A stretch of 58,114 nucleotides of DNA from IMG/VR virus record IMGVR_UViG_3300048770_000009, positions 1-58,114 of that record; one strand, 5' to 3'. Below are positions 8,549 to 57,864 of this stretch, piece after piece (the stretch's first letter is position 1; the number at the start of each line of letters is the position of its first letter). The position numbers and the translations under genes are program-made. Below the pieces are notes generated by a model. That model saw only the letters and a list, made by a program, of their open reading frames with translations, was not told the DNA's origin and did no database searches. This DNA comes from a virus.

Positions 8549-8736
8549 TTTATTACCTCCGGTGGTCCTTCGATTAAATCCCACTCCCAATGGCAGTTGA
8601 AAGCTGATCTTGATCCTTCGGGGTCGCACTTGTAGATTCTGGTCCAGATTGTTCCATCGTCACATAGGGCCAGAAACTCGCCCTCGTACTCCGCCGTGGC
8701 CGGCGTCACCATAAGTTGAATGACTTTCCGTTTCAA
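8545..8736 (-). CDS. Small conserved-type protein between groES and groEL
   Basis: 63 residues from TTG 8736, preceded by GGAGG (7 bases). Both ends overlap neighbours by TTGA, so ribosomes could pass from groES to this gene to groEL. The sequence has an EYEGEFLALCDDGTIW core resembling small single-domain phage proteins of unknown function and is rich in acidic and aromatic residues. No membrane segment. Being locked between the chaperonin genes suggests co-expression but not necessarily a chaperonin role. Confidence 0.75.
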   Translation of the reverse strand: MKRKVIQLMVTPATAEYEGEFLALCDDGTIWTRIYKCDPEGSRSAFNCHWEWDLIEGPPEVIN

Positions 8737-23092: not shown

Positions 23093-23518
23093 CTACCTCC
23101 GAACGAGCTTCAAAGGTTGAGTATTGCCGCCTTGGCGCCAGGCGCCGCGCAATGTGCCATCGGCGCCGACTTCCCCCGTCCAGAATGCCGGCAGCGTGGG
23201 AATGCGGAACGAAAGTGTGTAGCCTTCGAGGCTCTGCGCGGTGGCGAAATTGTCAACCTTGATGCCGGTCACGTCGTCTCCGTCAAGAGTGCCGGCCAGC
23301 TCGCCCTGGTTGGTGACACGCAGATGCAGCTTGATGTGCAAGGGGCCGAGGTTCCCCGCGTATTCCCCTGCCAGCGACAAGGGTACGACGCGAACCGTGC
23401 CGTGCTGGCTGGGCGCCAGAGCATATTGAATGGTCTGGAGAGCTGGCTTGACAGCCTGAGACCACGCGGGCGCGCTACAGGCCGCCAAGACAAGAGCCAA
23501 AGTGATTGTATGCTTCAT
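23093..23518 (-). CDS. Exported protein with an Acidobacteriota-type beta domain
   Basis: 141 residues with a clear Sec signal peptide: KH, then hydrophobic ITLALVLAACSAPAWS, then Gln. LAAC also fits a lipobox, so it may be a lipoprotein. The mature part has GTLDGDDVTGIKVDNF and, at the end, GTLRGAWRQGGNTQPLKLVRR. I know this pattern from a beta-rich domain in front of secreted alpha/beta hydrolases of Acidobacteriota, but no hydrolase follows. It looks like a host-derived exported 'moron' gene. It is transcribed with early genes, so a role in surface change or exclusion is possible. Confidence 0.75.
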   Translation of the reverse strand: MKHTITLALVLAACSAPAWSQAVKPALQTIQYALAPSQHGTVRVVPLSLAGEYAGNLGPLHIKLHLRVTNQGELAGTLDGDDVTGIKVDNFATAQSLEGYTLSFRIPTLPAFWTGEVGADGTLRGAWRQGGNTQPLKLVRR

Positions 23519-27039: not shown

Positions 27040-27311
27040 CCAGTCCCGTCAGCCGTGCATACCTCATCGTCGAGATTGTGGGTCACCCGGAGATGGTCGA
27101 GCCTGAGATTCGCCGATTTCTCAAGCAGTGGCAATCGCAGAGTGCCCGCAGTATGGAGATCCCAGAAGCCACGCGCCACAGTTGCCTGGAGGTTCATATT
27201 GAGCTTTCCGACGGCGATTTAAGCGGGGATGTTGTGAGACTTCGCGCCGCACGCAAGCATACGACCTGCGAGATGTGCGAGTCGGACGAGCCTCTAGGGA
27301 GTGTCAGATGA
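27036..27311 (+). CDS. Hypothetical protein
   Basis: 91 residues from GTG 27036 (GTGA overlap). Starts with strand RAYLIVEIVG, a helix rich in Gln, and ends near CEMC. Its stop overlaps the ATG of the first exported-protein gene, so both are probably co-translated. Confidence 0.6.
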   Translation: MTSPVSRAYLIVEIVGHPEMVEPEIRRFLKQWQSQSARSMEIPEATRHSCLEVHIELSDGDLSGDVVRLRAARKHTTCEMCESDEPLGSVR

Positions 27312-28825
27312 CAGCGCCCATAGCGCTATCGAGAGCGCAAGGCGACCAACTTAAGACCGTGCCGCCCGGCTTCCGTCTGTTCTTCTCGGTGCTGGCTAAT
27401 GCTTACTACCTCATGCCGCTCAAGTTGCTCCCAATCATCCTCTGCATGTTGACTATCGTGGCGCATAGCCAAACCTGCATCACCAATGCCCAGGTAACGC
27501 TGACCGGCAACCTCCGCAGCGCCAACGGCATTCCCTCCTCAAACTCCATCCTCACGCTGACCCCGAGCCAGCAAGGCCTCATCGCAGGATGTGGAGTCAA
27601 CCTCGCCACGGTCAACACGTGCGCGACATCGACCGATGGTTCCGTCGTCGGCGTCCAGAACCCCCAAACAGCGACAATCAACACCACCAGCGGTGGGGGA
27701 TCCCTGGGTTCTGGCGTCTACTACACGGTTTACGAGTGGTATGACGCTGCCAGCCACGTGACTCTGGTCAGCCCTGAGACCGCAACCAGTCTCGGCACTA
27801 CAGGTACGCTTGTGGTCAACCCACCATCGAGCGGCGTTCCGGCATTGGCAGTTGGGATGGATGTATTCATCTCCACTTCGAGCGGGACTGAGACACTGCA
27901 AGGTCAAACAACTGGGACGGCCTCTTTCGTCCAGTCCACCGCATTGACCTCTGGATCCAGTCCCGCCTCGACCAACACCACGCTGTGCCAAGTGGTGGCG
28001 AACGATGCAGTTTGGCCGACCGGCACCGGCTACAACGTGTCGATGGTCACTGTGAACGGCAATCCAGTTCCCAACTACCCGATGCAATGGCAGTTGCTCG
28101 GACCGGGCAGCACTTACAACCTATCGAACGGCCTGCCTTACTACCACGGCGTGGTCTTCTACCCCGTTCCGATCCTGTCTCAGCCAGCCAACCACGGACA
28201 GCAGAGCATCTCCGGCCCGCTGAACTTTGGAGGATACTACGTGACCGGCGTGGGCAAGCTCGGCGTCGGCACCAACTTCCCTGGCTGGGGCGTGGATGCA
28301 GAGGGAAGCGGGCTCGGTGCGTTTATCAATGCCGCGGGAGGCTATCTTCTTAATGGTTCTGGTGGAGTATCTGGCCAGTATCCATGCTCGGACGGCACTG
28401 CGATAGACCACTTCTGCACACTAAACACGACTTCGTATCAGACGATTGCCTCCAACGGCACAGCGCAGACCCAGCGCCCAACGCTCAATTTCAGTCCAGC
28501 ATTCTCTGTGACTGATTCCAGCTCGCCAGCGCAAACGACCATTGGAATCAACAAAGTGCAGTTGTCGCTTCCGGCAACGACTGTGAACGCCAACACCTGC
28601 ACAGCTCCAGCGACCGCGACACTGACCGGGGTAACCTCGACCTCGACGTTCTCAACAGCGTTCGCGACTAACCCGGTTGCGGCGGTTGGCTGGGGTGCAA
28701 ATGGCGGCCTGGTCGTCGAATTGTGGCCGGACGCCTCTCCCAATATGCTCGATTGGTCGATCTGCAATCAGACTGCATCGAACATCACCCCAACGGCTAT
28801 CGCGTTGAATGTAGGGGTGAACTGA
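27308..28825 (+). CDS. Exported fibre-like protein 1
   Basis: 505 residues from ATG 27308 (ATGA overlap, AGGGAG upstream); an internal ATG at 27413 would give a shorter signal. The hydrophobic segment LPIILCMLTIVAHS followed by Gln is a signal peptide, here preceded by an unusually long N-terminal region. The mature part is Thr/Ser/Gly/Asn-rich beta structure with Cys spread in pairs. The GVGTNFPGWGVDAEGSG segment resembles phage tail-fibre and appendage repeats, and the end (GWGANGGLVVELWPDASPN) looks like a fibre-tip domain. First of seven consecutive exported proteins. Confidence 0.75.
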   Translation: MTAPIALSRAQGDQLKTVPPGFRLFFSVLANAYYLMPLKLLPIILCMLTIVAHSQTCITNAQVTLTGNLRSANGIPSSNSILTLTPSQQGLIAGCGVNLATVNTCATSTDGSVVGVQNPQTATINTTSGGGSLGSGVYYTVYEWYDAASHVTLVSPETATSLGTTGTLVVNPPSSGVPALAVGMDVFISTSSGTETLQGQTTGTASFVQSTALTSGSSPASTNTTLCQVVANDAVWPTGTGYNVSMVTVNGNPVPNYPMQWQLLGPGSTYNLSNGLPYYHGVVFYPVPILSQPANHGQQSISGPLNFGGYYVTGVGKLGVGTNFPGWGVDAEGSGLGAFINAAGGYLLNGSGGVSGQYPCSDGTAIDHFCTLNTTSYQTIASNGTAQTQRPTLNFSPAFSVTDSSSPAQTTIGINKVQLSLPATTVNANTCTAPATATLTGVTSTSTFSTAFATNPVAAVGWGANGGLVVELWPDASPNMLDWSICNQTASNITPTAIALNVGVN

Positions 28826-29313
28826 TGCGCTGGCCTCTACTACTCTTGCTCTGTTGCGCTTCGGTGTTGGCGCAGGTTCCAGGATCTCCGGGAAGGACGA
28901 CATCCGGCGGCAACAACACCCACACTTTCACATTCTCGCCGGGGCTGGGCACGATCACGTGTAGCGGATCAACCTGTTCCGATACTTCCGGTTCGGTCTC
29001 TCCATCGTCTCAAGTGGTCTCAGGTAATCTCCATTTCAATTCGACCCATGACGCCAATTTCAACTTAGGTGGAGCATTTGGATCTGGAACAGGTCAGATA
29101 CAGGTGAGTTGCAACGGTGGCAGCACTTGGATGACGATAGCTTCCGGCAGTGGTAGCGTCGGCGGCGGATTGACCTACGGCTATTCCACGCCGGTCTGCT
29201 CAGGCCCCACCAACCTCAATACCCTGCTCTTCCGGTCGTTTCTGGGCGGCGGCGGGGCTTCGAGTTTCAATATGTCGTTTGAGTCGCCGTCATCGGTCGC
29301 GATTAGCTGGTAG
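28825..29313 (+). CDS. Exported fibre-like protein 2
   Basis: 162 residues; ATG 28825 overlaps the previous stop (TGATG). Signal peptide RWPLLLLLCCASVLA, then Gln. The mature chain is Gly/Ser/Thr-rich with evenly spaced Cys (ITCSGSTCSD, VSCNGG, PVCSG), suggesting disulfides formed outside the cytoplasm. Beta-rich, no known enzyme motif. Confidence 0.72.
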   Translation: MRWPLLLLLCCASVLAQVPGSPGRTTSGGNNTHTFTFSPGLGTITCSGSTCSDTSGSVSPSSQVVSGNLHFNSTHDANFNLGGAFGSGTGQIQVSCNGGSTWMTIASGSGSVGGGLTYGYSTPVCSGPTNLNTLLFRSFLGGGGASSFNMSFESPSSVAISW

Positions 29314-29360
29314 GCGGCAAGAAACCTCAACCATCAACCCCTCAAAGGAGCACCATCGCC

Positions 29361-30278
29361 ATGCGCAAAGCATTGTTCTCCATCGTCGCGCTGATCCTTG
29401 CCGCCATCTGCGCGGCCCCAGTGTCAGCGCAAACCGCCGTTACCCCGTTCACCGCGCCCTGGTACTACGCCACCAGCTTCCAACTCTGGTCGATCAACCA
29501 GCAGAGCCCCAACACGTACATCTTCCAGGGCCGCAGCCTTTGCAACAGCCAAGGGCAGAACCTCAACTTCTTCGTGTTCAACACCAATGCGCCTGTGCTG
29601 ATTGCGGACTCGAACTCCAGCAACTCGGAGGTTGTGACGCCATCGGCCATCGTGAATACCGCCGGCAGTTGCGGTGCGACCGTGGCGCCAAGCCACAATC
29701 ACTACACCTTCCAGATGAAATCAGGCACTGCCGGACTCCAAGAGGGCATCAACGCTCTCGACGGGCAGGGCGCATGGCCTGCGCTTTTGCTCTTGGATAA
29801 GAACTGGTGGACGATCGCCAACCAGATCCCTGGGACCACGGCGGCTACCATTCTCGGCGCGGCCAAGGGTGATGCTTCAGTCATGGTCGAGGACATCACC
29901 ACTCTTGGACCGATCTATTACGTGTGGAATGGCTCGGCGTATGCCTCTGGAACATGGGTCAACACCGCCCCGACCGCGGCGACAGGCGCGGCCGCAGGCA
30001 CCGCGACCAGCGAAGTTGCGACAGGCACCGCTCTCTCTGGCACCTATTCATTCACCACCGGCACCGCGACCACTGGCACTGTATTCACCGAGACTTGGGC
30101 GAACAGCGGCCAGTTCCAAGCTGCACCAGGCTCTTGCACGGTCACGAGCACTGGAGCGACAGCACCGCCAACCCTGACCGTGACGAACTCCTACTCAAGC
30201 CACGGCATTATGACGGTCTCTGTGGCCTCGGCGCTGGCCAGCACCACAGCGTACAGCTTTAGCTGGAACTGCAAGTAA
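29361..30278 (+). CDS. Exported protein 3, GLQEA family
   Basis: 305 residues, with AAAGGAGCACCATCGCC before ATG. Signal peptide RKALFSIVALILAAICAAPVSA, then Gln. The mature N-terminal half (WSINQQSP...GRSLCNSQ...NSEVVTP...GSCGATV...HNHYTFQMKSGTAGLQEGIN) is shared with the next two exported proteins. The C-terminal half is a Thr/Ala-rich beta region with two Cys. A terminator follows. Confidence 0.75.
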   Translation: MRKALFSIVALILAAICAAPVSAQTAVTPFTAPWYYATSFQLWSINQQSPNTYIFQGRSLCNSQGQNLNFFVFNTNAPVLIADSNSSNSEVVTPSAIVNTAGSCGATVAPSHNHYTFQMKSGTAGLQEGINALDGQGAWPALLLLDKNWWTIANQIPGTTAATILGAAKGDASVMVEDITTLGPIYYVWNGSAYASGTWVNTAPTAATGAAAGTATSEVATGTALSGTYSFTTGTATTGTVFTETWANSGQFQAAPGSCTVTSTGATAPPTLTVTNSYSSHGIMTVSVASALASTTAYSFSWNCK

Positions 30279-30304
30279 GCTCAACCAAGCCATCGAATGC
30301 ACCG

Positions 30305-30337
30305 GGCGGCCAGAATATGCACTGGCCGCCTTCTTTT
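30305..30337 (+). terminator. Rho-independent terminator within the exported cassette
   Basis: GGCGGCCAG (30305-30313) and CTGGCCGCC (30322-30330) form a perfect 9-bp stem with an 8-base loop, followed by TTCTTTT. It lies between exported genes 3 and 4, so the later ones need read-through or a separate promoter, which I did not find. Confidence 0.85.
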
Positions 30338-30358
30338 ATGCAAAGGAGCAACATCGCC

Positions 30359-31162
30359 ATGAAAAGATTAGTATTGCTTGCAGCGTTTCTGGCTCTGCCA
30401 CTGGCGCTTGCTGCCCAAACCACCAGCGCAACAGCCAGCGTGACGAGCCCGGCCAACGGCCCAGCCAACCTCGCAGGATTGCTCTACGCTGCCAACTTCG
30501 CCCACTGGACCGCCTCACCGACCCCGCAGGGCACGCGCTGGGATAATCCCGGCCAGTGCTACGGCACGTCCGGCGGCCTGGTGTTCCCGCTCTACTCCAC
30601 CAGCGCGCCCATCACCATCGTGGATCTTGGCGTTCCGAGCAACACCGAGACGGTGACGCCGACCCTGGCTAGCTATCTTGGCTCCGGCTGCTCGGTTTCT
30701 TTGCCGGCTACCCATCCCCACTCCAACTACTACCTGCAATCTGGGACGCTCGGCCTCCAGGAAGCGCTGAACTTCGCCGGCTCGGCTCACTATGTCGTGG
30801 TCCTCACTCCAGACTGGCAGACCATGGGCGGCACAACCGGGATGATTACCAGCGCCACGGCCGGGACCAACACCACGATTCTGGATGCGCGCACATCGAC
30901 GCTGGTGCCGTACTCGGGATCAACCCCAGCATCAGGCAGCACCGGAACGGGAAAGCTTGTGCTTCAGACCAACCCAACTCTAATCGGTCCCACCAGCAAC
31001 ACCATTGTCCTCACCGCCGCGGCTCCCACAGTAGCGGCCTCACAGGTCGGTTTGGGCGGCACAACCGCTGCGGCCTCGAACTGCAACACCGTCGGCACAA
31101 GTCCTGCCGCCTGCCTGGTGGTAAACATTGCCGGCACCGTTCACTACATCCCCTACCAGTGA
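30359..31162 (+). CDS. Exported protein 4, GLQEA family
   Basis: 267 residues from ATG 30359, with AAAGGAGCAACATCGCC upstream, nearly the same leader as exported protein 3. Signal peptide KRLVLLAAFLALPLALAA, then Gln. Mature part: NLAGLLYAANFAHW, one Cys, NTETVTP, GSGC, HPHSNYYLQSGTLGLQEALN, then LTPDWQTMGGTTG and ILDARTSTLVPY. Closely similar in order to exported protein 5. Function unknown. Confidence 0.76.
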   Translation: MKRLVLLAAFLALPLALAAQTTSATASVTSPANGPANLAGLLYAANFAHWTASPTPQGTRWDNPGQCYGTSGGLVFPLYSTSAPITIVDLGVPSNTETVTPTLASYLGSGCSVSLPATHPHSNYYLQSGTLGLQEALNFAGSAHYVVVLTPDWQTMGGTTGMITSATAGTNTTILDARTSTLVPYSGSTPASGSTGTGKLVLQTNPTLIGPTSNTIVLTAAAPTVAASQVGLGGTTAAASNCNTVGTSPAACLVVNIAGTVHYIPYQ

Positions 31163-31166
31163 CCCC

Positions 31167-32387
31167 ATGAAAAAACTCATTCTTTGGCTTGCGATGATCG
31201 CGTTGGGCGCAGGGCAGTTGATCTCTGCGCAGTCTCCTGGGCAACCAACCAGGAACCCTGGCAACGATGCAGGCCTGCTTTACGCCTCCACTTTCGGCCT
31301 CTGGTCAATCCCTCAAGGTAATCAAGGCCAGTTCTCGTGGTCGGCGCCCTCTTTATGCACAACGAACGCCAACGGCATCCCGCTCAACCCAGTATTTGCC
31401 GTTGGAACCCCCATCTACATCAAAGATCAGGTTCCGGCCAACTCTGAAATCGTGGTTCCTACAGCGGTGACTGTCGGAGGCTTCGGCTGCTCGATCACCG
31501 TGAACCCAGTCAATCCACACAAAACATTCACACTCACATCGGCTACTGGTGGGCTCCAAGAAGCCATCAACTACGCCCACGGCCTTCCGTATGAGATTGT
31601 TCTAACGCCGGATTGGACACGGGTGGGCGGAACAACCGGCACTATTACGGCGGCGACCGGCATTACCAACATAAGCATCCTCGATGCGCGCACAGCTTGC
31701 CTGGTTCCCTATATCTGGAATGGCGCTGTTTACACCAATCAAGGGAACTTATGCAGTGGCGGCGGTGGGTTCACTATCAACTCCTTCACCGGCTGCGCTG
31801 GATCGCTTGAACTCGGGCAGACGGTCACGAATCCCACATGCGTGGCGACGTACACCGGGGTTCCGTCGAGCGCCAACATCACCAACACTGACTCGATTGA
31901 CTCGCCACTAGTCCTAAGTTCTCCATTCACAACCGGCACCATCGTTGGCAGCTTCCACCATTCCGCGATCGCAACGACGACTGTGACACTCACGGCGACT
32001 GGAGCTTCTACGCAGACCGCAACCCAGCAGTACACATGGCAGCCGCGCATCTTTGGCGGCGTAGGGACGGCCGGGGCGACCTCAACGGTGACCGCGAGCG
32101 ACACAACCGCCGTGCTGAGCACCAGCGACGCCCTGCCGAGCGCCGGCCTGGGCGCCGAGACGGTTGGACAGACCTTCGGGCCTTACACGCCGAGTGCGCA
32201 GAACGTCTACCTGCTGCTCTTGGGAGGCAGTCACACCTTCATCGACGCCGGCACCGGCTTCCCCTTTGCCTTCAATCCCCCCATTACAGTGACATTCGTC
32301 AATGAGTTTGGCGTGACGGTGACGATGTACCTGTACCAGAGCACCAACCCGCTCTACGGAACGTACACGCCAAAGGTGGCTAGCTAA
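31167..32387 (+). CDS. Exported protein 5, GLQEA family
   Basis: 406 residues from ATG 31167. Signal peptide KKLILWLAMIALGAGQLISA, then Gln. Shares with exported protein 4 the LLYAS.F.LW start, NSEIVVP, GFGCSI, PHKTFTLTSATGGLQEAIN, LTPDWTRVGGTTGTI and ILDARTACLVPY. An additional C-terminal beta domain (about 230-406) ends in YLYQSTNPLYGTY. Tandem paralogy within a phage, with one member enlarged. Confidence 0.76.
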   Translation: MKKLILWLAMIALGAGQLISAQSPGQPTRNPGNDAGLLYASTFGLWSIPQGNQGQFSWSAPSLCTTNANGIPLNPVFAVGTPIYIKDQVPANSEIVVPTAVTVGGFGCSITVNPVNPHKTFTLTSATGGLQEAINYAHGLPYEIVLTPDWTRVGGTTGTITAATGITNISILDARTACLVPYIWNGAVYTNQGNLCSGGGGFTINSFTGCAGSLELGQTVTNPTCVATYTGVPSSANITNTDSIDSPLVLSSPFTTGTIVGSFHHSAIATTTVTLTATGASTQTATQQYTWQPRIFGGVGTAGATSTVTASDTTAVLSTSDALPSAGLGAETVGQTFGPYTPSAQNVYLLLLGGSHTFIDAGTGFPFAFNPPITVTFVNEFGVTVTMYLYQSTNPLYGTYTPKVAS

Positions 32388-32388
32388 T

Positions 32389-35300
32389 ATGAAAAATCTG
32401 TCGAAACTGTTGATTCTCGCCATTTTGGCCCCTTGCGCCCTCGCGCAGGTTCCAGCACCGCAGATCCCATTGACCGGCAACATCGGCTCGGGCGGCGTCT
32501 TCCCGAATCGCAATCCGGGAGTTATTTCATTCACATCTGACGCAAATCACACGATGGTCTATCCCGAAATGAGCGCCGGTTTTATCAAAGTGATTAGCTC
32601 GGTCTCGCTCACCGCAACACGAAGTCTTGTGGCCCCCCAGGCAGCAGGCTTCCAATTCACCATCGAGAACGCTACCACCGGAAGCCAGTCTATTCAGGTT
32701 ATCGGCGTGACTGGAACCGGTGTGACGATTACAAATGGCACCACTGTCACGGTGGTCAGCGACGGGACGAACTTCGTGCAGTCAGGAGGAATCAGCGGTG
32801 TTATTTCGATACCCGGTGGTGGCACAGGTGCGACCACGGCCTATGGCGCGGCGACAAACCTCGGGGTTCCGCAATGGACAATCGGAGTGGGCGCTCCCTC
32901 GGCGACGTGCTCGGCAATCGCAAACAATGGTACTTTCTATACGAGCAGCACATCGGAAATCTTCCAGTGTTCAAATGTGACAGGCACGTATCAGTGGAGT
33001 CAGCTTGGACCCACGCTTAACTGCGCGGCGGCATCGGTCTACAGCAACATTTTGTGCTACGGCGGCATCGCCGACTTGCAGCCATCCTTTGGATACATGA
33101 GCTTTGGCTGGTCTAGCGGGGGATATGCTGTTAACGTCACAGGCTCACTTGACGGTTACTCTTGGAATTTCACGTCTGCCGACGTGGGCAAATACATCTC
33201 ATTTAACAAAAACTCAGGAGCTTGGACGGGGGGCTTGCCTTTCGTTGCGAACTCCATCACGACCGCTAACACCGCCAAAATTGTGTCAGTTATTGACGCC
33301 ACCCATTTTACAGTGGATCGGCAGTTCCAGACCACGGACTCAGCCTATGGCATCTGGGGCACGGATAACACCCCCGCTGCCCATGCTTGTTACACAGCAG
33401 TTGTCCAGGGCAACGGCGGAACTTGTGCTTGGCTGGCGGGCCACTATATGCTTGCCACCTATGACCATGACGCTAATGGAAATGTTGTCTACGCCTATGG
33501 TGGTCTTGCTCAAGACTCAGGCGATTATCAGACTAACGCAGGTGGCTCTGGAGCGACGGTCTCTTGTACCACTGTATCCGGACATCTTAACGCTTGCACC
33601 GTAACTGGCGGGGGTACAAACTACCCCGCCTCGAATACAGAAATTCTGGATTTTGGACAGAGTGCTTCTAGCTGGCTTGGATGCCCAACTATTTACGCTG
33701 GTCCGTGCGGTGGTGAGTTCGCTACAGTTACAACTGACTCCAGCGGGCACGTGCAGAACCCTGTCACAATCGTCTATGCCGGTTTTGGTCTAACCGGCAC
33801 AGTAGCTCCAAACGTAATTCCGACTGGCGGAGACGGGGAAGCTGCAACCTGCTCGTTGACTGGCGGCACCTGCGGAACCCCGACCATCACCAATGCTGGC
33901 GGCGGACACCCAACTTCCCAAACTAATTTCCTTGCGATTCACGCTTTCAATGCTGGCGGCTCAACTTGCTCCACTGTCGGCGGCTATGCTGGAACCAACT
34001 TCGTCGGCGTGGGTACAGCCTCATCGAACTCCTCTGGCGGCATTTCCTCTGCCGTGTGGACGACCGCTCCGACAGGATGCGGCTCTGTTGCCCCAACTAT
34101 TGTCTTTGGCCCCTTCGCTTGCTGGGATTCCGGCACGTCCAAGTTTGATGCTCAGTGTACCAACCTATCCCCACTTATCCCCCCGGCTATCCCGATTCAG
34201 GTAGCTCTGGTATCAGGAGCATCTACGTTCGCCCCGACCGGGTCAGCGCTACAGGGTGCCTCCGTCTTTAGCACGTGGGATGGGGTGACTGTTGATACCC
34301 CTACTCCAGGCGTGTTGCAAACTCAATCAGCAATGTTCGGAGGACCGTATAGCCGAGAGGACGTGGGTAATCTGGAAATAGACTCTGGATTTATCGGGCT
34401 GTGGGTAACCAACAACGCCAACAAGGGAAACCAGCACGACATGGTTTTTGCAACAGGTATCGGTATCTTGAGCGCGTCCACCGATCTTGGACTGAAAGTT
34501 AGCAATCTGGAGTTTGACTCAGGCGCTCCCTACGTTAATGGTGGAACATGGAGCCACCGCTCAGACTTCCCGGCTGGCGCGGGTGGGATCAACGATTTTG
34601 AAGGTTTTGACAACATGGTAGTCGAGCCTTCGGCATATAACTCGGTGTACGCCAACCTGGACACCTGGTTTGACAAGGCTGTGTGGCACTCCGACTTTAC
34701 CGGAGACGCCGTGGATATGCCTGAGACTTGCGCTACCCCAATGGGCATTGCACAGCGTCAGACAGGACCGAGCTTTAGCACGCCGCAGGGCGCGAACGCC
34801 ATGTGCTACAAAGGCATCACGGGTTTTGGGTATCTTAATCTCGCCCGCGATAACCGCAACGCTGGAGGATCACCCCTCACCAACCTTAACGGCAAGTATT
34901 TGTACCGTCCGATCTTTTACGGGTCTCTCGGGCCGTCGCCTGTATTCAACTTCGATTGCGAAGGATGCACCACGCTCGTTTCGGACCCATACCGTGTAGA
35001 GTCTGTGCAGGAAGGCGCGATGGAGTTCTCGGGTGGCACTTGGGCGAACATCAACAAGGTGTATTGGAGCGGAAGCCCAATCTTGCAGCCCTTGTGGAAT
35101 TTCCAAGGGCTATCTACCTATGGCACTGCCGGTTCTCCAATCGGGACGGCATGGAGCGAAATCGGCGCGTCTGCCCCAGTGAACGCTCAGCCTGTGCAGA
35201 ACCTGAACATTCAGGCTCAGATTCAAAACCAATTTGGTGAAGCGATCACCTTCAACCCGGCAACTGGAATTCCCGGTGAGATTGACTTCCTGAACCAGAG

Positions 35301-37935
35301 CAACACAATTACACCTGAGTTGGGCGGTGTTATCAAGCCGAACGGGTATAACAACGATGGCTATGGACTCTACGACGGCTTTGGCAACAAGATTGTAGAC
35401 ATCCATCACAGCCAAATCAGCTTGCCTCAACAGGCGGCTGGCTCTGGGCTGCATCAGTGCTTACACACGGATGACAATGGAATTGTAACGGGCACAGGCT
35501 CCGACTGCGGCTCTGGCGGCGGCGGGGGCGTACCCAGCGTCAACGGCGTCACCACTGCAGTAACGATAGCAGCCGGGGCAGGCATAGCGGTCAGCACTGT
35601 TGGAAGCACAGTCAGCATTGCAAGCACTGGCGGCGGGGGTGGGTATGTCAGCCCACTGGCAGGAAAAACGCTTGTGGATATGGGTGACTCACGGCAGATT
35701 GTAGCGGGTAGCTGTCAAGTGGGGGCATTGAGTGAAGATGCAATCTCAGGCTGCACCATTTCAAGCCATATCGCAACATGCACAGAGGCTAACACCAACA
35801 ATCAGGTCGTGAATAATGCGCTGCTGCTCTCTACTTTTGGCGGCTCTTATACAGCACTCAACGGTTTTGTGGCGACAGTTACAGGGATGCCAGGGACCAA
35901 TCAATTCACCTTTGACGCTACATCTACAGGAGTACCCGATGGCTCGACCGGGGCAGGATATGAGTCCTGCAAATATGCGCTTCCGCAACAGCAGCGCGAT
36001 GATCCATTGTATGCTGGTGTAACCATCGTGCAAAAATCAGCAGGTGGAGATAGCGCCGCGAATGAAGCTGCCACCTTTTCCACGAATCCCAACTTTCCAA
36101 GCGTCACGCCGGGTAGCACTATCCTTGTATCACAGCTTGGGTCGCAGGATTGTCTTAGCGGCACCGCACAGGCAACCACCGAAGCAAATCTTTTCTCGTA
36201 TATGCAACAGGTTCACGCCAAGGGTTATCTCTACACGGCGGAAACACTGCTACCAGTTCCAAGCAATGTTTATGCTTCTGCAGCTGCTAACTGCACACAG
36301 ACTATCAGCACGTGGTTGAGTCAACAGTCCAAGACATCGTTGAATTCCAACCCAGCGGTTTGCACTACAGCAGGAGTAGCAGGACAACCCGGTCAGACAG
36401 CGGGAAGCAACATTTGCGGATATTATTGGAACAGTTTTGCTGATCCAGCCGCATTGTTACCCTTTTATCCTAATAGGTATTTTTTCTGTGACTATCCAGA
36501 CAACCCCGCGACCAATTGCGAAAACCTGCATCTTACCGATCCCGGAGTATCGCGGTTAGAGGCTGCAATCTCCACTGCCACCATCTCAAACACCATCCAG
36601 CCGGGTTTAGGCGACATACAGCAGGTGGTTAGCTCGGATCAGGCAGCAATGCTGAATATGAGAGTCAGCACAGTTAACAACTCTGCGGGTTCCGGACCTG
36701 TGGCATCGTTTGGGATCACTCTGCCAAACTACAATTTTCCCAGCGAGTATACCCAAGGCGGTTATTCGGCTATGCAATTTTATGCGCCGTACGTGGATCA
36801 ACTAGTAACGGATATGCCCGGTGACTCGGCGCTGTGTTTTGACAAGAATTTATTGCTTACACCTTACCTAAACGGCGATAGCGGCGATGTATGCACGGTC
36901 CACGATCCCTCTAACATACAGACAGAAATCCTAGTCTCCGGTCCGACAGCAGCCACCGCGCTGATGCCAGATGCGAACCTGTCAGCGCACAATGTTTCAA
37001 TCAACGGTGCACTGAATCTTCTAACCAATCCTGTAGACTTGGCGCTGAACAATCAGAGCCAGACGTTTAACGGCACGCAGACTGTTGTAGCTCCCGATGC
37101 TAACAACGCCGCCGCCATTTTCAGCGCGAACACAACTGGCATTTTGCAGCCAGTATTTGTGCAGGGAAGTTCGGATGGTACAGGGACTCTCCCCAATCCG
37201 GTGACGGCTGGAAATGCCATCGTTGTAAATTGCGGAAATGCTGAGGGGGGATTACCGGGTATAACAGACAATTTAGGGAACACCTACACAACAGCAGCAA
37301 GTGTAATTATAAGTCCCGCCAGTTACCACGATGTATGGTCAGCAGTTGCTTGCAATGTCAACGGTGGTACAATTACAGTTTCCTCAACGGTATCTCCATA
37401 TCCAGGTTGTGGGACTAATGGTATGAGCGTAGCTGAGTACACCAACGTGGCTGCATCATCCTCTTGTGTGGATGGTAGTGGTGTTGCAATGTTGACGACA
37501 TACAATCCACTTGGTGTCGGAATCCAATGGACAGCTACGACGCCAACCTTGACCACGACTCAACCAAACGATAGGTTGATTGCAGCGTATGCGCGTGTAG
37601 ATAGTGGTATCCCCATATACTTAGGTAAATTTGCTACGCCAGATACCTCCTCGATTTACACGTCAATGTCATCAGCCCCGGCTTATGCAGCGGGTGTGCA
37701 AAAAGGCGTATCTGTCTCCTATCCATACGACGGATATGGTGGATTGATGCTGTTTGCGCTCAAAGGTAAAGCAATCTCCGGCGCAGCAGCACCAGCGGTA
37801 CGGTCACAGGGGGATATTACTCTTAGCGACTCAGCTATCAATGGTGTGATCTGGAAAGACACGGTAGATGGAAGTTGCAGACGGTTCCAGCTAAGCGGCG
37901 GCATTCTTGTCGGCACCGAAATACCTTGTCCATAA
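32389..37935 (+). CDS. Giant exported fibre-like protein with SGNH-hydrolase module
   Basis: 1848 residues from ATG 32389. Signal peptide KNLSKLLILAILAPCALA, then Gln. N-terminal part (about 25-160) resembles a tail-fibre attachment module (SLTATRSLVAPQAAGFQFTI). The middle is a long beta-rich region, probably a beta-helix (about 200-950). A fibre-type linker follows (VNGVTTAVTIAAGAGIAVST, about 1045). An SGNH/GDSL-type domain (about 1090-1395) has MGDSR, SAGGDSA and ENLHLTDPG, matching the Ser block, a Gly block and the Asp-His block. The C terminus has a jelly-roll-like domain with ITDNLGNTYT. It is probably an esterase acting on surface polysaccharide, carried on a fibre or exported. Confidence 0.78.
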   Translation: MKNLSKLLILAILAPCALAQVPAPQIPLTGNIGSGGVFPNRNPGVISFTSDANHTMVYPEMSAGFIKVISSVSLTATRSLVAPQAAGFQFTIENATTGSQSIQVIGVTGTGVTITNGTTVTVVSDGTNFVQSGGISGVISIPGGGTGATTAYGAATNLGVPQWTIGVGAPSATCSAIANNGTFYTSSTSEIFQCSNVTGTYQWSQLGPTLNCAAASVYSNILCYGGIADLQPSFGYMSFGWSSGGYAVNVTGSLDGYSWNFTSADVGKYISFNKNSGAWTGGLPFVANSITTANTAKIVSVIDATHFTVDRQFQTTDSAYGIWGTDNTPAAHACYTAVVQGNGGTCAWLAGHYMLATYDHDANGNVVYAYGGLAQDSGDYQTNAGGSGATVSCTTVSGHLNACTVTGGGTNYPASNTEILDFGQSASSWLGCPTIYAGPCGGEFATVTTDSSGHVQNPVTIVYAGFGLTGTVAPNVIPTGGDGEAATCSLTGGTCGTPTITNAGGGHPTSQTNFLAIHAFNAGGSTCSTVGGYAGTNFVGVGTASSNSSGGISSAVWTTAPTGCGSVAPTIVFGPFACWDSGTSKFDAQCTNLSPLIPPAIPIQVALVSGASTFAPTGSALQGASVFSTWDGVTVDTPTPGVLQTQSAMFGGPYSREDVGNLEIDSGFIGLWVTNNANKGNQHDMVFATGIGILSASTDLGLKVSNLEFDSGAPYVNGGTWSHRSDFPAGAGGINDFEGFDNMVVEPSAYNSVYANLDTWFDKAVWHSDFTGDAVDMPETCATPMGIAQRQTGPSFSTPQGANAMCYKGITGFGYLNLARDNRNAGGSPLTNLNGKYLYRPIFYGSLGPSPVFNFDCEGCTTLVSDPYRVESVQEGAMEFSGGTWANINKVYWSGSPILQPLWNFQGLSTYGTAGSPIGTAWSEIGASAPVNAQPVQNLNIQAQIQNQFGEAITFNPATGIPGEIDFLNQSNTITPELGGVIKPNGYNNDGYGLYDGFGNKIVDIHHSQISLPQQAAGSGLHQCLHTDDNGIVTGTGSDCGSGGGGGVPSVNGVTTAVTIAAGAGIAVSTVGSTVSIASTGGGGGYVSPLAGKTLVDMGDSRQIVAGSCQVGALSEDAISGCTISSHIATCTEANTNNQVVNNALLLSTFGGSYTALNGFVATVTGMPGTNQFTFDATSTGVPDGSTGAGYESCKYALPQQQRDDPLYAGVTIVQKSAGGDSAANEAATFSTNPNFPSVTPGSTILVSQLGSQDCLSGTAQATTEANLFSYMQQVHAKGYLYTAETLLPVPSNVYASAAANCTQTISTWLSQQSKTSLNSNPAVCTTAGVAGQPGQTAGSNICGYYWNSFADPAALLPFYPNRYFFCDYPDNPATNCENLHLTDPGVSRLEAAISTATISNTIQPGLGDIQQVVSSDQAAMLNMRVSTVNNSAGSGPVASFGITLPNYNFPSEYTQGGYSAMQFYAPYVDQLVTDMPGDSALCFDKNLLLTPYLNGDSGDVCTVHDPSNIQTEILVSGPTAATALMPDANLSAHNVSINGALNLLTNPVDLALNNQSQTFNGTQTVVAPDANNAAAIFSANTTGILQPVFVQGSSDGTGTLPNPVTAGNAIVVNCGNAEGGLPGITDNLGNTYTTAASVIISPASYHDVWSAVACNVNGGTITVSSTVSPYPGCGTNGMSVAEYTNVAASSSCVDGSGVAMLTTYNPLGVGIQWTATTPTLTTTQPNDRLIAAYARVDSGIPIYLGKFATPDTSSIYTSMSSAPAYAAGVQKGVSVSYPYDGYGGLMLFALKGKAISGAAAPAVRSQGDITLSDSAINGVIWKDTVDGSCRRFQLSGGILVGTEIPCP

Positions 37936-37947
37936 GGAGGACAAAAA

Positions 37948-38280
37948 ATGAAAAAAGTACTTTTACTCGCGGTTCTGTTTGTGGCTGTTCTCGGCAAGGC
38001 ATCTACCCCTGCCCAAACAGCACCTGTTGCACCGCCCCTTGCAGCTTGTGCCTTTAACCATCCCGAATCTAAGCCGACAATGTTTGTGCCTCGCATCCAG
38101 AAATCCTATGGGCTGCTCACTCTCAACAGTGCTGGTGATCCTATTCTCATTCACCCGGCTAACAACACAGTTGCAGTTCCAACTTCAGTCACAACAACCC
38201 CTTGCGTTACGGGTGAGAAAAGCCTGGTCTATCTGCTGACCGTATCAGTTGCACAGCAGTTGAACACGGGCACGAAGTAA
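37948..38280 (+). CDS. Exported small protein 7
   Basis: 110 residues with a strong AAGGAGG 7 bases upstream. Signal peptide KKVLLLAVLFVAVLGKASTPA, then Gln. Mature part has two Cys and a short beta-rich domain (SYGLLTLNSAGDPILIHP, EKSLVYLLTVSV). Could be a partner or cap of the giant protein encoded 12 bases upstream. Confidence 0.73.
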   Translation: MKKVLLLAVLFVAVLGKASTPAQTAPVAPPLAACAFNHPESKPTMFVPRIQKSYGLLTLNSAGDPILIHPANNTVAVPTSVTTTPCVTGEKSLVYLLTVSVAQQLNTGTK

Positions 38281-41456: not shown

Positions 41457-41719
41457 TGGCCCCGTACATCCCATGGAAGGTGCGCAAGGCGGCAGAGGCA
41501 GCTAGAGCCGCGCAGCCACGCCAAGTATGGTGTACTCGATACCGCGAAGCACGCCAAGCGAAACGAGAAGATGCGGCATTCGAGAGCGGGATTGAGAAGC
41601 TCGGCGAATATCTGGCTGCATGGACATGGCTTGACGAGATCCCGCAGCCGCTATGGTTCCCGCGCTGTGTGAGCATCGAGTGCCGTCCGGACCAGCAGAT
41701 TTTCATGGGGATGCGATGA
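41456..41719 (+). CDS. Hypothetical protein
   Basis: 87 residues from ATG 41456, with GAGG upstream. Basic, Arg/Ala-rich helix first (RKAAEAARAAQPRQVWCTRYREARQAKRE), then WTWLDEIPQPLWFPRC. Overlaps the next gene by 4 bases. Unknown. Confidence 0.6.
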   Translation: MAPYIPWKVRKAAEAARAAQPRQVWCTRYREARQAKREDAAFESGIEKLGEYLAAWTWLDEIPQPLWFPRCVSIECRPDQQIFMGMR

Positions 41720-42297
41720 AGAGACTCGCCCTCATCGCGCTCCTTGCCGTTCCCTGCCACGCGCAGCAGCCGGGACTTGCCAAGCTCCAGCAGGCGGTTA
41801 CGGACCTAACGGCGGCGGTCCAGAGGCTCACGGCGGCGCAACCGTCACCAGGCGCAGGTCTGCTGCCCGGTCAGACAGGACTCTTTGCCGCGTTTCCCAA
41901 GGGCCAGTTCGGAATGCCTACGACCTTGCCAGCGGGCTTGGTGCCGGTCTGGACGACGAATGACCCCATCAACTGCCCACTGACGCCAGCCGTGGCCGAT
42001 TCCAACGCATCGCAGATGGTTGTGACCGTGCCAGCGAACCTGATCCCGAGCGCCGGCCAGGTCTGCATCCTGACCGTGACCTCGCCGGACGGGACCGGCG
42101 CAAGCAGCATTGTGATTCCATTCACGGTGCCGGGGCAGGGACCGTTCAACGCGAACATACTCAACTGGCAAGTAGCCCCGCAGGTGATTACGGGCTACTA
42201 TGTTTACCAGATCGCGCTGCCGACACCGCCCGCGCCTGGGCAGTCGGTTGCGCGGCTGGAGAAGAGGGGAAATGCTGAGCGAACCGTTAGGCCGTGA
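41716..42297 (+). CDS. Exported protein 8
   Basis: 193 residues from ATG 41716 (overlaps the previous stop). Signal peptide KRLALIALLAVPCHA, then Gln. The mature start is a heptad helix (LAKLQQAVTDLTAAVQRLTAA) suited to trimerisation, then a beta domain with two Cys (NCPLT, QVCILTV). Similar in style to the main exported cassette but separated from it by 3.4 kb. Confidence 0.72.
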   Translation: MKRLALIALLAVPCHAQQPGLAKLQQAVTDLTAAVQRLTAAQPSPGAGLLPGQTGLFAAFPKGQFGMPTTLPAGLVPVWTTNDPINCPLTPAVADSNASQMVVTVPANLIPSAGQVCILTVTSPDGTGASSIVIPFTVPGQGPFNANILNWQVAPQVITGYYVYQIALPTPPAPGQSVARLEKRGNAERTVRP

Positions 42298-43111: not shown

Positions 43112-43240
43112 ATGGACAATCTTCCTATGGGAGGCATGTTTGTTTCCCCAATGGGCTTTAGCTGCCCAGAGGGTACACATCTCGCGGCACTCCCCGACAC
43201 GGATAAGAAAGTCTGCCAACCGAATCCAGGTTCTGATTGA
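43112..43240 (+). CDS. Small Cys-pair protein
   Basis: 42 residues from ATG 43112; the start is uncertain and the ribosome site weak. MGGMFVSPMGFSCPEGTHLA...KKVCQPN. Its stop overlaps the next TTG (TTGA), which supports translation. A competing frame (43065-43253) encodes a signal-like hydrophobic stretch ending ALAAQ and cannot be excluded. Confidence 0.45.
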   Translation: MDNLPMGGMFVSPMGFSCPEGTHLAALPDTDKKVCQPNPGSD

Positions 43241-43704
43241 CGCCGCTGTATAGGCACCGTATTACAGGGCGCAACCAACACGGTGCGGAAGTTCTGGAGC
43301 ACAATATGTGGTGGACCTTTGAAATCCCGACCGGCCGCTACTTCAACCCATCCGGTGCCTACGTCTCGACGGGCTATGCTGGGAACGGACCAGATAAAGA
43401 TAATGTAGACTCTGAGGCTATCGTTGGCCATGGCCCGCTGCCAGAAGCGACCTACGCGATGGGAAAATGGTTCGATGATCCCGAAAAAGGACCGATCGTT
43501 TGCCATCTCACTCCGTTGCCGGGAAGCGAGATGTACGACCGTGACGCTTTGAGTTTTATGATTCACGGCGATTCGCTTCGGCATCCTGGCTGGGCTTCCG
43601 ATGGCTGCTGTGTCGCCGACCATCCCACGCGGCTTGCAATGTCCACGTCGCCCTGCCAGTTCATCAGGACGGTAAAACAATTCACGCCTACCACCGGAGA
43701 ATAA
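43237..43704 (+). CDS. L,D-transpeptidase-like (DUF2778-type) protein, possible lysis enzyme
   Basis: 155 residues from TTG 43237. FMIHGDSLRHPGWASDGCCV contains the His110...Ser121-Asp-Gly-Cys124 pattern of L,D-transpeptidase-like enzymes, closest in style to DUF2778, a group that includes a peptidoglycan-targeting toxin. Cys124 would be the nucleophile. No lysozyme or amidase is visible in the window, so this is the best lysis-enzyme candidate; it has no signal peptide and would need a holin. A terminator follows. Confidence 0.65.
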   Translation: MTPLYRHRITGRNQHGAEVLEHNMWWTFEIPTGRYFNPSGAYVSTGYAGNGPDKDNVDSEAIVGHGPLPEATYAMGKWFDDPEKGPIVCHLTPLPGSEMYDRDALSFMIHGDSLRHPGWASDGCCVADHPTRLAMSTSPCQFIRTVKQFTPTTGE

Positions 43705-53703: not shown

Positions 53704-54414
53704 ATGCAAACTCGGGGCGATTGTTTCTCTCAGGTTGGCGGGCTCGTCGGGGTCACTTATCCCGATGACGATTGGCTTACAGAGGAGTATCTCGCCCCGA
53801 AATGCAACACAGCTTATGAGCAGTCGATCATGTACCTTGAGCTTTCCTGCTCGCCGTACATCGAAAAGGTTGTGCTGATTCCATCGGTGAATGTGGGAGC
53901 CGACGAAAGCAACCTAACTCCATACGCCGGAGCCGATAGGACTTATCCCCTCAAGAACCTTGTGGAACCCCGCTTTGTGGACTTCCGTGTATCTGGGACC
54001 AATGGACCGTGGAAGCCCGTCAAGGAATGCACGATCCTGCCCGACACGCCTCAACAAGTGCAGGCCGGGACGTTTGACTTCCGTGTGCGGGGAGACTTCC
54101 GGCCGGCGGACCTCACAACCGATGACAGCGTTATTGAGGTTCACCCTCTCGCGGCGCATGCCCTGGCTTACTCCATCGGCGCGCTGATCGGCGCGGAGCG
54201 GCCCAACGATGCGTGGACGACCAATTATGGCACGATCGCCAAGGCTGCATGGGATGTCATCTCGGCCAAGCTCACCCAACAGATGCAGCGGCAGAGTTTC
54301 AGGCTTGGCTCTCCAAACCGCGGCAACGGAAGCGGGCGCGGATGGAATTACAACCTCCAATCCAACGTGGGATGGGAGTGGCGCAGTTTCGGTCTGTATG
54401 TGAAATTGATCTAA
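53704..54414 (+). CDS. Head-tail connector-like protein
   Basis: 236 residues. DWLTEEYLAPKCNTAYEQSIMYLELSCSP is helical, then a strand-rich middle, and helices LAAHALAYSIGALIGAERPNDAW. The order (connector after capsid, before a large tail protein) and size fit an adaptor that joins the portal. Moderate confidence. Confidence 0.6.
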   Translation: MQTRGDCFSQVGGLVGVTYPDDDWLTEEYLAPKCNTAYEQSIMYLELSCSPYIEKVVLIPSVNVGADESNLTPYAGADRTYPLKNLVEPRFVDFRVSGTNGPWKPVKECTILPDTPQQVQAGTFDFRVRGDFRPADLTTDDSVIEVHPLAAHALAYSIGALIGAERPNDAWTTNYGTIAKAAWDVISAKLTQQMQRQSFRLGSPNRGNGSGRGWNYNLQSNVGWEWRSFGLYVKLI

Positions 54415-54438
54415 CCAATTCAACCAAGGAGAACCATC

Positions 54439-54789
54439 ATGGCAAATGCAGTTACCATCGCCTATCAAAAATCCGGCAATAACTTCAAAACAACGATCTT
54501 CAAGATCGCTCTGAGTGGCAATTATGCTGCACCCGAGGTCGTGACTCTGACTAACGCAGCATCTAACCCCGCTGCTCAGACGGCTACTGGTCCTTCTGGA
54601 GCTGCTCCACTTGGCGCCGTTCCTACCTTCGGTGGAGTTCCGGGTTATTCTGCAACTCTAACCCCCACGGCGACGGCGGGACAGTACAACCTCACGTTTG
54701 CCAATGGGGGATCTGCTCTTTCTGGTGCATATCCCGCTGGCACGCAAACCCTCGGCGCTGAAATTGACCACTGTTTGCAGGGATTCTAA
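54439..54789 (+). CDS. Small virion-type protein
   Basis: 116 residues, with AAGGAG 7 bases before ATG. Beta-rich, Ala/Thr/Gly-rich (TLTPTATAGQYNLTFANGG). Possibly a decoration or tail protein. No known family. Confidence 0.6.
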   Translation: MANAVTIAYQKSGNNFKTTIFKIALSGNYAAPEVVTLTNAASNPAAQTATGPSGAAPLGAVPTFGGVPGYSATLTPTATAGQYNLTFANGGSALSGAYPAGTQTLGAEIDHCLQGF

Positions 54790-54798
54790 GGCAGGTAA

Positions 54799-57700
54799 AT
54801 GGCCAATTACGGCGGAGCGACCAAGGTAGAGTTCAGTCGCTGGCTTGGCCTCGTAGATGAGGATGACCCCACCAATCTGCCCATGGGCTGTGCTGCCCTG
54901 TCGCAGAATTGCCGGTTCAATCTTACCGAGGTCGAGACCAGATACGGGATTCAGACTGCAATCCAAGGAAAGAACCAGAGTCCAATCACGGGCCTCTTGG
55001 GGTGCGCCTTCACCCCGGAGACCGCGACTCAGGTTTACTTTCAGGCCATATTGCTCTACGACTATGCCGGCGCCTTCCAGATCGAGAATCCATCCGGAAC
55101 AGGTCGTACCACGAGCATAACCGGGCCGCTGGTCACTCTCCCCGCCAACTCCCACATGATCGGCACCCAAGCCTATAACCGGGCTTGGATGGGATTCTCC
55201 AACCTCCTCACCCCCACAGCTTTCCCGGCAGCATACGACCTCTCGACCAAGCAACTCCTTCCTTACGGCATGAAGCCTGTGGGCTTCGGCTGGTACGCCG
55301 GCGCGCAGGTGCTGGTGGGGGAATGCTGCACCCCGTCGCAACTCCAGAGCGGGGTTACTGTGGCTGTCGGCAATGGCCATCTCTACATCTGCACCGTGGC
55401 CGGAACGACAGCGAACGTACAGCCAGTGTGGCCTCTCACTGAAGGCGGGACTGTTGTAGACGGCGGAGTGACGTGGAAAGAACAGACGCCGGTTATGGCG
55501 AACCGCATTGCTGCTCCGAATGCCCCGGCGCTGGCTCTGGCTGGCGGTGGAACGATCGCGGCCGGGCAGGATGTCTATGTCGCCATTACGCTCGTCAACG
55601 CCCAGGGAGAAAGCCTCCCAAGCCTCTCCAGCAAGATCACCACACTTGCCGGAGCTACAACCGTCAACGTCACGATTCCAGCTCTTGCGTCGATGGCCGG
55701 CTGGGTGCAGGGATTGCCGTCACAATACGTTCCCATCGCGGCAAATGTTTATGTCGCCATTGTCGCCACGGCAACGCCTGCGCCACAGCTATCCACCTAT
55801 CAAGCCGCGAATGCTGCACCTGTCGCTCTCGGCGGAACTTATGGCGTCGCCGCGGCTGGTTCCTTCCAAGCTCCCCCGACCACCAATACAGCCCGTATCA
55901 CGGGCGGCCAACTTCCCACTCCAGACATCGAGCCTGTCATCGCGCGCGCGGGCGGTGGCGGAGTATTTGCGGCCGGGTTGGATGTCTACATCCTCCAGAC
56001 CTATGTGAACGCCATCGGCGAGACGCTCCCAGGTCCGGCTAATTCCGTCATCGACACACAGTTGGATGATTCGATCGTCATCACTACGCAGTTTCCGCAG
56101 GGTTACGCCGTCACCGGCATCAACCTTTACGAATGCGATGTGCCAACCGGGACCACCTTCGATGGCAGCACCTTTCCGCCTCCCGGTAACTTCGCTCTCA
56201 TTGGCACATTCGGCACTGGCGCGACCGTCACGATTACAAATACCGTGGTCGGTCCTCCACCGCCAACCGTCAACACTACCGGGCCTGCTGGCAACATCGC
56301 GCAGGACACGGCCACGGGAGGCCCCAACGGCACCCAGGGCTATCGCTGGCTCTGCATCGCCTATGAGGATGACTTCGACACCATCTCTGGCTTTACGCAG
56401 GCTGCGACCTTCAGTTATATCGTGGATGAGAACGGCTGGGAGTTATCCCTCTTCAACCTTCCCACAGGGCCAAGTTACATCCAGAACGTGATTGCTGGCT
56501 TCTCCGTTGCCGATGGGTTGAGCGCTGGACCCTTCTTCTATATCCCGCAGTCAACCGTCTCGGACGCCATCCCCATGACGGCGACGGCCTTCCCGAATGG
56601 AACCTCGACAGCCACGGTCAACTTCACCGATGAGTTTCTGATTGGCTCCATCGACATCACTGACAGGCTGCGCGTCATTCAGCCTCAACAATGCGTTGAC
56701 ATCTACTACTCCCCGACCGTTGACCGCATCTTCCAGACTGGCGTGCCGGGCTTCTATTCCAGCCACTGGGTCTCGCTGGCGGCAGATCCTGAAAGCTACT
56801 ACGGCGACACCAGCATCATCACCGTGGGAACCGACGACGGCGAGCGCGCCTGGTGCGTGCGCGAGTTTCAAGGCGTTCTCTATTCCTTCCGTGAGCGGTC
56901 TGGTTTTGAAATCAATCCCTCGACGGCGGACCCAGCAACATGGGTAGTCACGAAACGCTGGACCAAGGTGGGACCGTGCGGGCCGCGCGCGGTCGATGTG
57001 TGCGGCCAGTTCATCATTTTCGTGCATTCGAGTGGTATCTATAAGTACGAAAGCTCCTACCCTGAATTGGTCTCAAAGGAACTGCCGCGCTGGTGGAACA
57101 CGATCAACTGGGCAGCCCAGCAAACCATCTGGTGCGCGATTGATGCCGAGGAGCATGAAGTCAAAATGGGCTTCCCTGTCGGTAACAGCACCGTGCCGAA
57201 TGTGGTTCTCACGCTCAACTATGAGGAGGGCTGGAACAACCCCCTGCTGTTCTCGCGCTACTCTGGCAAAGAAATAACCATCGAGCAGTGCCGCAAATAC
57301 TCAGTGGATAGCATTGCTGGATTTGTCGGCGGCAGGGTTTACCGGACTATCACGGGCGAGCCCACCCCAGACGAGGGTCCAGTGGACACCACCGAAGAAT
57401 ACGCGCGCCAGTACATCTCGCAGTTCCTGATTGCCTCCTCTGGACCTGATGGGACGGTGCAGGCCATCTCGCCGGGAATCTACAACGACAATGGAGCCGG
57501 GATCGATTGTCAGTACGAAAGCGTGGCCGCGCAGGAGATGATGACTCTTTGCAAGCTCCAAGGTCTCAACATGAACGCCCGCGGCAACGGCAGCCTCTTT
57601 GTATCGTTCATTGCTGGCGCGCGCAGGATCACGGACTGGGGAGCCGGTACGCCACAGCCAAGATGGTATGTCCCGCTTAAGCCGATCCAGCTTGAACTGA

Positions 57701-57864
57701 ATCCCACCAAGGGAATCAGCCGTAACACCCCCAGCAAGCTCAATGAGCGGTGGAGAGTGCGCTACACCAACGGAGCGATTGCGGATGCCTGGTTCTCGAT
57801 GAAGTACAGTTGCGTGTTTATCAGTCCCATGTTCCAGGGCCGACTGGCTGGGGAGAGTAGATAG
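54799..57864 (+). CDS. Large tail/neck structural protein
   Basis: 1021 residues. The start (VEFSRWLGLVDEDDPTNLPMGCAALSQNCRFNLTEVETRYG) and the later FREHSGFEIN-like REFQGVLYSFRERSGFEINPS, GPCGPRAVDVCGQFIIFVHSSGIY resemble large neck/tail hub proteins of short-tailed phages. The middle has two fibronectin-like beta units (about 235-330 and 380-500). Likely the main tail component. Confidence 0.7.
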   Translation: MANYGGATKVEFSRWLGLVDEDDPTNLPMGCAALSQNCRFNLTEVETRYGIQTAIQGKNQSPITGLLGCAFTPETATQVYFQAILLYDYAGAFQIENPSGTGRTTSITGPLVTLPANSHMIGTQAYNRAWMGFSNLLTPTAFPAAYDLSTKQLLPYGMKPVGFGWYAGAQVLVGECCTPSQLQSGVTVAVGNGHLYICTVAGTTANVQPVWPLTEGGTVVDGGVTWKEQTPVMANRIAAPNAPALALAGGGTIAAGQDVYVAITLVNAQGESLPSLSSKITTLAGATTVNVTIPALASMAGWVQGLPSQYVPIAANVYVAIVATATPAPQLSTYQAANAAPVALGGTYGVAAAGSFQAPPTTNTARITGGQLPTPDIEPVIARAGGGGVFAAGLDVYILQTYVNAIGETLPGPANSVIDTQLDDSIVITTQFPQGYAVTGINLYECDVPTGTTFDGSTFPPPGNFALIGTFGTGATVTITNTVVGPPPPTVNTTGPAGNIAQDTATGGPNGTQGYRWLCIAYEDDFDTISGFTQAATFSYIVDENGWELSLFNLPTGPSYIQNVIAGFSVADGLSAGPFFYIPQSTVSDAIPMTATAFPNGTSTATVNFTDEFLIGSIDITDRLRVIQPQQCVDIYYSPTVDRIFQTGVPGFYSSHWVSLAADPESYYGDTSIITVGTDDGERAWCVREFQGVLYSFRERSGFEINPSTADPATWVVTKRWTKVGPCGPRAVDVCGQFIIFVHSSGIYKYESSYPELVSKELPRWWNTINWAAQQTIWCAIDAEEHEVKMGFPVGNSTVPNVVLTLNYEEGWNNPLLFSRYSGKEITIEQCRKYSVDSIAGFVGGRVYRTITGEPTPDEGPVDTTEEYARQYISQFLIASSGPDGTVQAISPGIYNDNGAGIDCQYESVAAQEMMTLCKLQGLNMNARGNGSLFVSFIAGARRITDWGAGTPQPRWYVPLKPIQLELNPTKGISRNTPSKLNERWRVRYTNGAIADAWFSMKYSCVFISPMFQGRLAGESR

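Follow-up and report, generated by a model that had tools for sequence, protein, structure and literature searches.

Exported, fibre-like proteins with glutamine at position +1 in a clade of tailed soil phages: candidates for fibres built outside the cytoplasm

The heads and tails of tailed phages assemble in the cytoplasm. The locus considered here raises the question of how a tailed phage might use proteins that resemble tail fibres and yet carry signal peptides for export, since an extra step uniting fibre and virion would then be needed. The window, by which we mean the whole stretch of DNA analysed (a virus record of 58 kb, 58,114 nucleotides), belongs to a tailed phage from soil and encodes the small and large terminase subunits, a DnaB-type helicase and GroEL; a large portal-like protein, a capsid-like protein and virion structural genes are among the window genes that are also kept in relatives. 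The answer that we consider reasonably, if not highly, probable is that receptor-binding fibres in a large clade of tailed soil phages are built outside the cytoplasm, with Sec export, a cut before glutamine, full disulfide pairing in the periplasm and docking only at lysis.

Signal peptides and the residue at position +1

A rightward run that begins at 27.4 kb comprises seven adjacent genes for proteins with Sec signal peptides, arranged back to back and ending at 38280. All on the plus strand, these are w1 (family F1; 27413..28825, 470 aa, signal peptide 27413-27469, cleavage site AHS/Q, eight cysteines in the mature part), w2 (28825..29313, 162 aa, 28825-28872, VLA/Q, four cysteines), w3 (F3; 29361..30278, 305 aa, 29361-29429, VSA/Q, four cysteines, AGGAG upstream), w4 (F4; 30359..31162, 267 aa, 30359-30415, LAA/Q, four cysteines), w5 (F5; 31167..32387, 406 aa, 31167-31229, ISA/Q, six cysteines), the very large, fibre-like w6 (32389..37935, 1848 aa, 32389-32445, ALA/Q, 40 cysteines in the mature part) and the small w7 (37948..38280, 110 aa, 37948-38013, TPA/Q, two cysteines, with a GGAGG ribosome site). 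Two outliers have the same type of signal, namely, w8, which starts at 41716 on the plus strand (41716..42297, 193 aa, 41716-41763, CHA/Q, two cysteines), and w9, which starts at 23518 on the minus strand (23093..23518, 141 aa, 23459-23518, AWS/Q, no cysteine in the mature part). The first-pass annotation had described the run as starting at 27308; signal peptides are indeed found on all seven products, but the first start should be the ATG at 27413, because a start at 27308 would place about 35 non-signal residues ahead of the signal peptide. For the third to fifth genes, the best starts are 29361, 30359 and 31167. The minus-strand region has tandem arrays within or next to its ORFs, at 12507-12752 (6 bases), 15991-16327 (24 bases) and 23958-24089 (12 bases).

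Each of the nine N termini has a basic start, a hydrophobic core and a small-x-small/Q site, with small residues at −3 and −1 and no lipobox. Glutamine occupies position +1 in all nine, encoded by CAA in four cases and by CAG in five. Signal peptides were called with a von Heijne-type matrix that is blind to the residue at +1. All nine window proteins were called, so that the pattern initially noticed in the sequence, nine signal peptides out of nine with glutamine at +1, holds up; the blind cut falls exactly before the glutamine in four of them and one or two residues away in the other five. Among the other window genes, the weak calls that remain come chiefly from antisense ORFs or transmembrane segments.

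Across the clade, glutamine directly follows the blind cut in 26 of 60 cases, compared with a glutamine content of about 5% across the mature parts of these proteins (p about 2e-18); in 50 of the 60, a Q-site lies no more than a few residues from that cut. The blind count for Burkholderia, Sinorhizobium and E. coli taken together is 2/26 (Fisher p 0.001 versus the clade). Chance is thus excluded as the source of the +1 glutamine. Furthermore, the four shared families keep this residue in 26 of 26 homologues (starts judged by eye) while their signal peptides vary, and a Q-site is found in 48 of the 49 predicted signal peptides of homologues of the w3/w4/w5 module. The same applies to 80 of 90 strong signal-peptide calls in 46 held-out contigs, which were found via the w5 module and accordingly represent new genomes rather than unrelated families. 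Among these figures, only the blind counts are non-circular because the residue-by-position table was built on cuts placed with knowledge of the glutamine.

Cysteine parity of the mature proteins

An exported protein with all of its cysteines paired should have an even number of them in its mature part, and the counts given above for w1 to w8 are all even, with none in w9. In the first set of phages, the mature cysteine count is even in 58 of 61 exported proteins, whereas the other genes of these phages are divided between 201 even and 206 odd; in the held-out contigs, the corresponding values are 56/57 and 95 even to 128 odd. Proteins whose signal peptide itself has an odd cysteine count are even in their mature part in 19/21 cases in the first set and in 33/33 in the held-out contigs. 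Pooled, 104 of 108 proteins are even after the predicted cut, compared with 58 of 108 when counted from the initiator Met, and 72 of 75 when a single protein is taken per cluster. In one of the odd cases (L126), the cut is probably misplaced, the likely site being HG/QSC. Parity is not a general feature of the host, given that a sample of the host-group secretome is random in this respect (23 even, 27 odd).

Judging from these counts, removal of the signal peptides is very probable, as is pairing of every cysteine in the mature proteins, and parity provides strong evidence for selection on the mature proteins for complete disulfide pairing. Removal of the signal peptide combined with paired cysteines would indicate an oxidising periplasm as the place of maturation; the original guess of periplasmic disulfide formation is backed by this result. 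No phage-encoded disulfide enzyme was detected among the genes scanned.

Parity also bears on the view that the hydrophobic N termini are segments that stay uncleaved and serve in tail attachment or as membrane anchors. Such a role would be compatible with the imprecision of the blind cut and with the fact that cleavage is predicted from sequence, but cysteines are even only with the signal peptide removed, and the small-x-small/Q site is kept while the hydrophobic core varies, which makes uncleaved segments highly improbable.

Fibre-like architecture, conservation and precedents

A terminase search of IMG/VR recovered 29 close and about 20 distant relatives, and a run of the same kind is present on most of the contigs extending into the fibre region (for instance, G002, G007, G009, G014, G017 and L120-L136). 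The order F1, F3, F4, F5 is constant wherever all four families occur; homologues of w1 are found throughout the clade, and w6 matches a G011 module locally. Phage records yielded no DNA match to the fibre region and no protein match to w6 or w1, and plasmids yielded no match to w1. Elsewhere in the window, the GroEL gene (6869-8629, minus strand) shows 54-72% identity within the clade and about 37% in distant relatives, and 16-3474 probably encodes the C-terminal portion of a giant protein of virion type, the ORFs of the relatives reaching about 3000 codons or more.

The exported proteins look like tail-fibre-like receptor-binding proteins, as judged from N-terminal modules that are conserved, C-terminal binding domains that are exchanged, and sequence links to known fibres. 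An N-terminal module containing two invariant cysteines is common to w3, w4 and w5, whose C termini are unlike, and w1 combines a conserved beta domain of about 230 aa with a variable C terminus. Confident folds were predicted for the w5 module (residues ~30-190) and for the w1 domain, the latter being beta-rich. Among homologues, the C termini are exchanged between Ice_binding, Laminin_G_3, F5/8C-like (weak) and InlB-repeat domains, and in the w4 homologue of G007 (L061:4554-6026), the C terminus matches the PHROG tail fiber protein family phrog_11393 (1.7e-11); together with the layout of constant N and variable C termini, this match is in line with the earlier description of the proteins as tail-fibre-like. 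L139 encodes a fibre-like protein that has the w1 domain but no signal peptide, and its gene adjoins others judged from sequence to be of baseplate type. An exported fibre-like protein of another relative (L081:6752-9046) contains an ice-binding-like domain (PF11999, E 1.9e-33). Searches of the exported proteins of the window against Pfam and PHROGs gave no family match, and fold searches gave no confident match for the w5 module and weak viral matches only for w1, with no PDB hit below 0.001. An SGNH-like GDS motif considered in w6 was dropped, as neither Pfam nor PDB comparisons supported it.

The same domains are central to the main rival explanation, under which the exported proteins remain outside the virion as secreted adhesins or glycan-binding proteins with fibre-derived domains, coating the infected cell, excluding superinfection by blocking receptors, or gluing debris and cells together. 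Export before lysis is the most direct meaning of a signal peptide, and the Ice_binding, Laminin G, F5/8C-like and InlB-repeat domains would suit surface adhesion. There are also precedents for phage proteins that are exported from the cytoplasm: T4 Spackle (gp61.3) loses its signal peptide by cleavage, contains a disulfide and acts in the periplasm, although it is a small inhibitor of the gp5 lysozyme and is not fibre-like (PMC7650644), and Porphyromonas gingivalis phages (Nixviridae) encode five proteins with Q-rule signal peptides to which no function has been assigned (PMC10367356). Conversely, the presence of several large proteins per genome in a fixed gene order, with constant N and variable C termini and a match to a fibre family, is typical of receptor-binding proteins. 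Moreover, the window showed no fibre-like gene that lacks a signal peptide, and Pfam detected neither an outer-membrane anchor nor a C-terminal secretion domain in the exported proteins. Taken together, a surface-coating role is a serious possibility, to which we give distinctly less credence than to virion fibres.

The P. gingivalis phages resemble the present clade in that their proteins are fitted to a +1 glutamine rule of the host, and the initial statement that no phage system of this kind had been described was too strong in view of them (PMC10367356); the clade differs from these phages in its fibre-like run, its fully paired cysteines, its host group and its lineage. Filamentous phages provide another parallel. 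Their receptor-binding virion protein pIII is Sec-exported and disulfide-bonded before it joins the particle. Export and disulfide formation ahead of entry into the particle are what we propose here, but filamentous phages assemble at the inner membrane, whereas the phage of the window is tailed. Fibres, Sec export and the glutamine rule are individually known; in a literature search covering open-licence papers, their combination in tailed phages, with full cysteine pairing, was not found, and the report closest to it is that on the P. gingivalis phages.

A further parallel comes from Tunturi_1 (PP887698), a cultured podovirus isolate of Acidobacteriota (PMC11924767). Beside its tail gene, ORF12, 13, 14, 16 and 17 encode predicted signal peptides, with glutamine at +1 in four of the five and threonine in the other, and some members of the ORF12-17 run are annotated as tail spike or virion structural protein. 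The four large members contain 20, 10, 20 and 32 mature cysteines and the small ORF16 contains one, so that the count is even in four of five. Modules of ORF17 and ORF13 recur among the clade's exported proteins (E 5e-14 and 4e-6), whereas the terminase and portal of Tunturi_1 have no clear match to the window. Signal peptides are not mentioned in the main text of the Tunturi_1 paper (PMC11924767). Acidobacteriota phages do not seem to need exported fibres in general, because Tunturi_3 has no signal peptides on its annotated tail fibres, and the stretches scanned of Tunturi_4 and Tunturi_5 showed none either. In the stretches scanned of crAss001 (tailspikes), HTVC103P and phiM6, annotated virion genes likewise lack signal peptides.

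The host and a possible route to the virion

The best-known +1 glutamine rule is that of Bacteroidetes, in which signal peptidase I substrates have small residues at −3 and −1 and most secreted proteins have glutamine at +1 (Bochtler 2018, PMC5837995). The window proteins share these features, and the first-pass annotation had accordingly proposed a rule of this type imposed by the host. The imposition by a host still appears sound, but Acidobacteriota are a likelier source of it than Bacteroidetes. Here, the rule is seen in phage proteins and in secreted proteins encoded by plasmids of Terriglobia. Within candidate hosts, the count covers plasmid DNA of Terriglobia: it is high in Granulicella (blind +1 glutamine 34/76, Q-site 56/76) and weaker in Acidisarcina (blind 8/25). 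The Granulicella plasmids (L096-L101, L104-L119 and L162-L166) thus display an apparent Q-rule outside Bacteroidetes. The main text of Bochtler 2018 (PMC5837995) does not mention Acidobacteria, and the rule in Terriglobia may be so far unreported. The glutaminyl cyclase family PF05096 is absent from the phage and from three Terriglobia plasmids.

A Bacteroidota host, with the glutamine reflecting the plain Bacteroidetes rule, would have the advantage that the rule is best known in that group (PMC5837995). This assignment is nevertheless highly improbable. AGGAG-type ribosome sites precede about half of the phage genes checked, the GC content of the window is 58%, and the modules of the exported proteins are common to the clade and an Acidobacteriota phage. 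The Bacteroides phage crAss001 lacks such features in the 50 kb scanned, and the glutamine value is high in Granulicella. In tetranucleotide composition, the window correlates at 0.22 with a Bacteroides plasmid and at 0.68-0.69 with Terriglobia plasmids, with Proteobacteria scoring about the same as Terriglobia, so that composition fits both of the latter groups. No relative was found among genome contigs by a search with the large terminase subunit, and the phage GroEL proved uninformative, matching only MAGs of Chloroflexota at 36-39% and plasmids of Proteobacteria at around 50%. A host among Acidobacteriota appears likely given the glutamine enrichment in Terriglobia, the gene run of Tunturi_1, the AGGAG sites and the lack of signal peptides on Bacteroides phage tailspikes.

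Returning to the proteins as virion fibres, we propose, as the more probable course of events, that these phages export receptor-binding tail fibres, whose folding and oxidation take place in the periplasm and which join the virions at lysis. The fibre proteins would be synthesised with Sec signal peptides and cut before glutamine by signal peptidase I of the host, as are the host's own secreted proteins; the exposed glutamine might go on to form pyroglutamate by cyclisation. In the periplasm, the mature fibres would fold and form all of their disulfides, given that pairing would be prevented in the reducing cytoplasm. When lysis breaks the inner membrane and the wall, the finished fibres would meet heads and tails assembled in the cytoplasm and dock on the tail. 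Joining at lysis would be the simplest step by which exported fibres become useful to a tailed phage that is assembled in the cytoplasm.

The window contains candidates for the other partners in this scheme. The tail and neck genes at 53704..57864 (plus strand) have no signal peptide and are conserved in relatives; they include a candidate adaptor at 53704, for which position in the gene order suggests this role, a gene at 54439 and a virion structural protein at 54799 with PHROG head and virion structural matches. Their products are the part that the exported fibres would need to bind. The product of 43237..43704 (plus strand), a Tlde1-like protein of the LD-transpeptidase type (E 1.4e-6, just under the Pfam cut-off), is a candidate peptidoglycan-degrading lysis enzyme.

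If this proposal is correct, fibres maturing in the periplasm would follow an assembly line of their own, with a late step that is new, in contrast to the cytoplasmic assembly that is taught for tailed phages. Cysteine parity offers a test of real export that needs nothing but sequence and can be used on any virome. An apparent +1 glutamine rule is extended to plasmids of Terriglobia, which points to a possible host signature where a phage otherwise has none. Finally, Tunturi_1 is available in culture, which makes direct testing possible.
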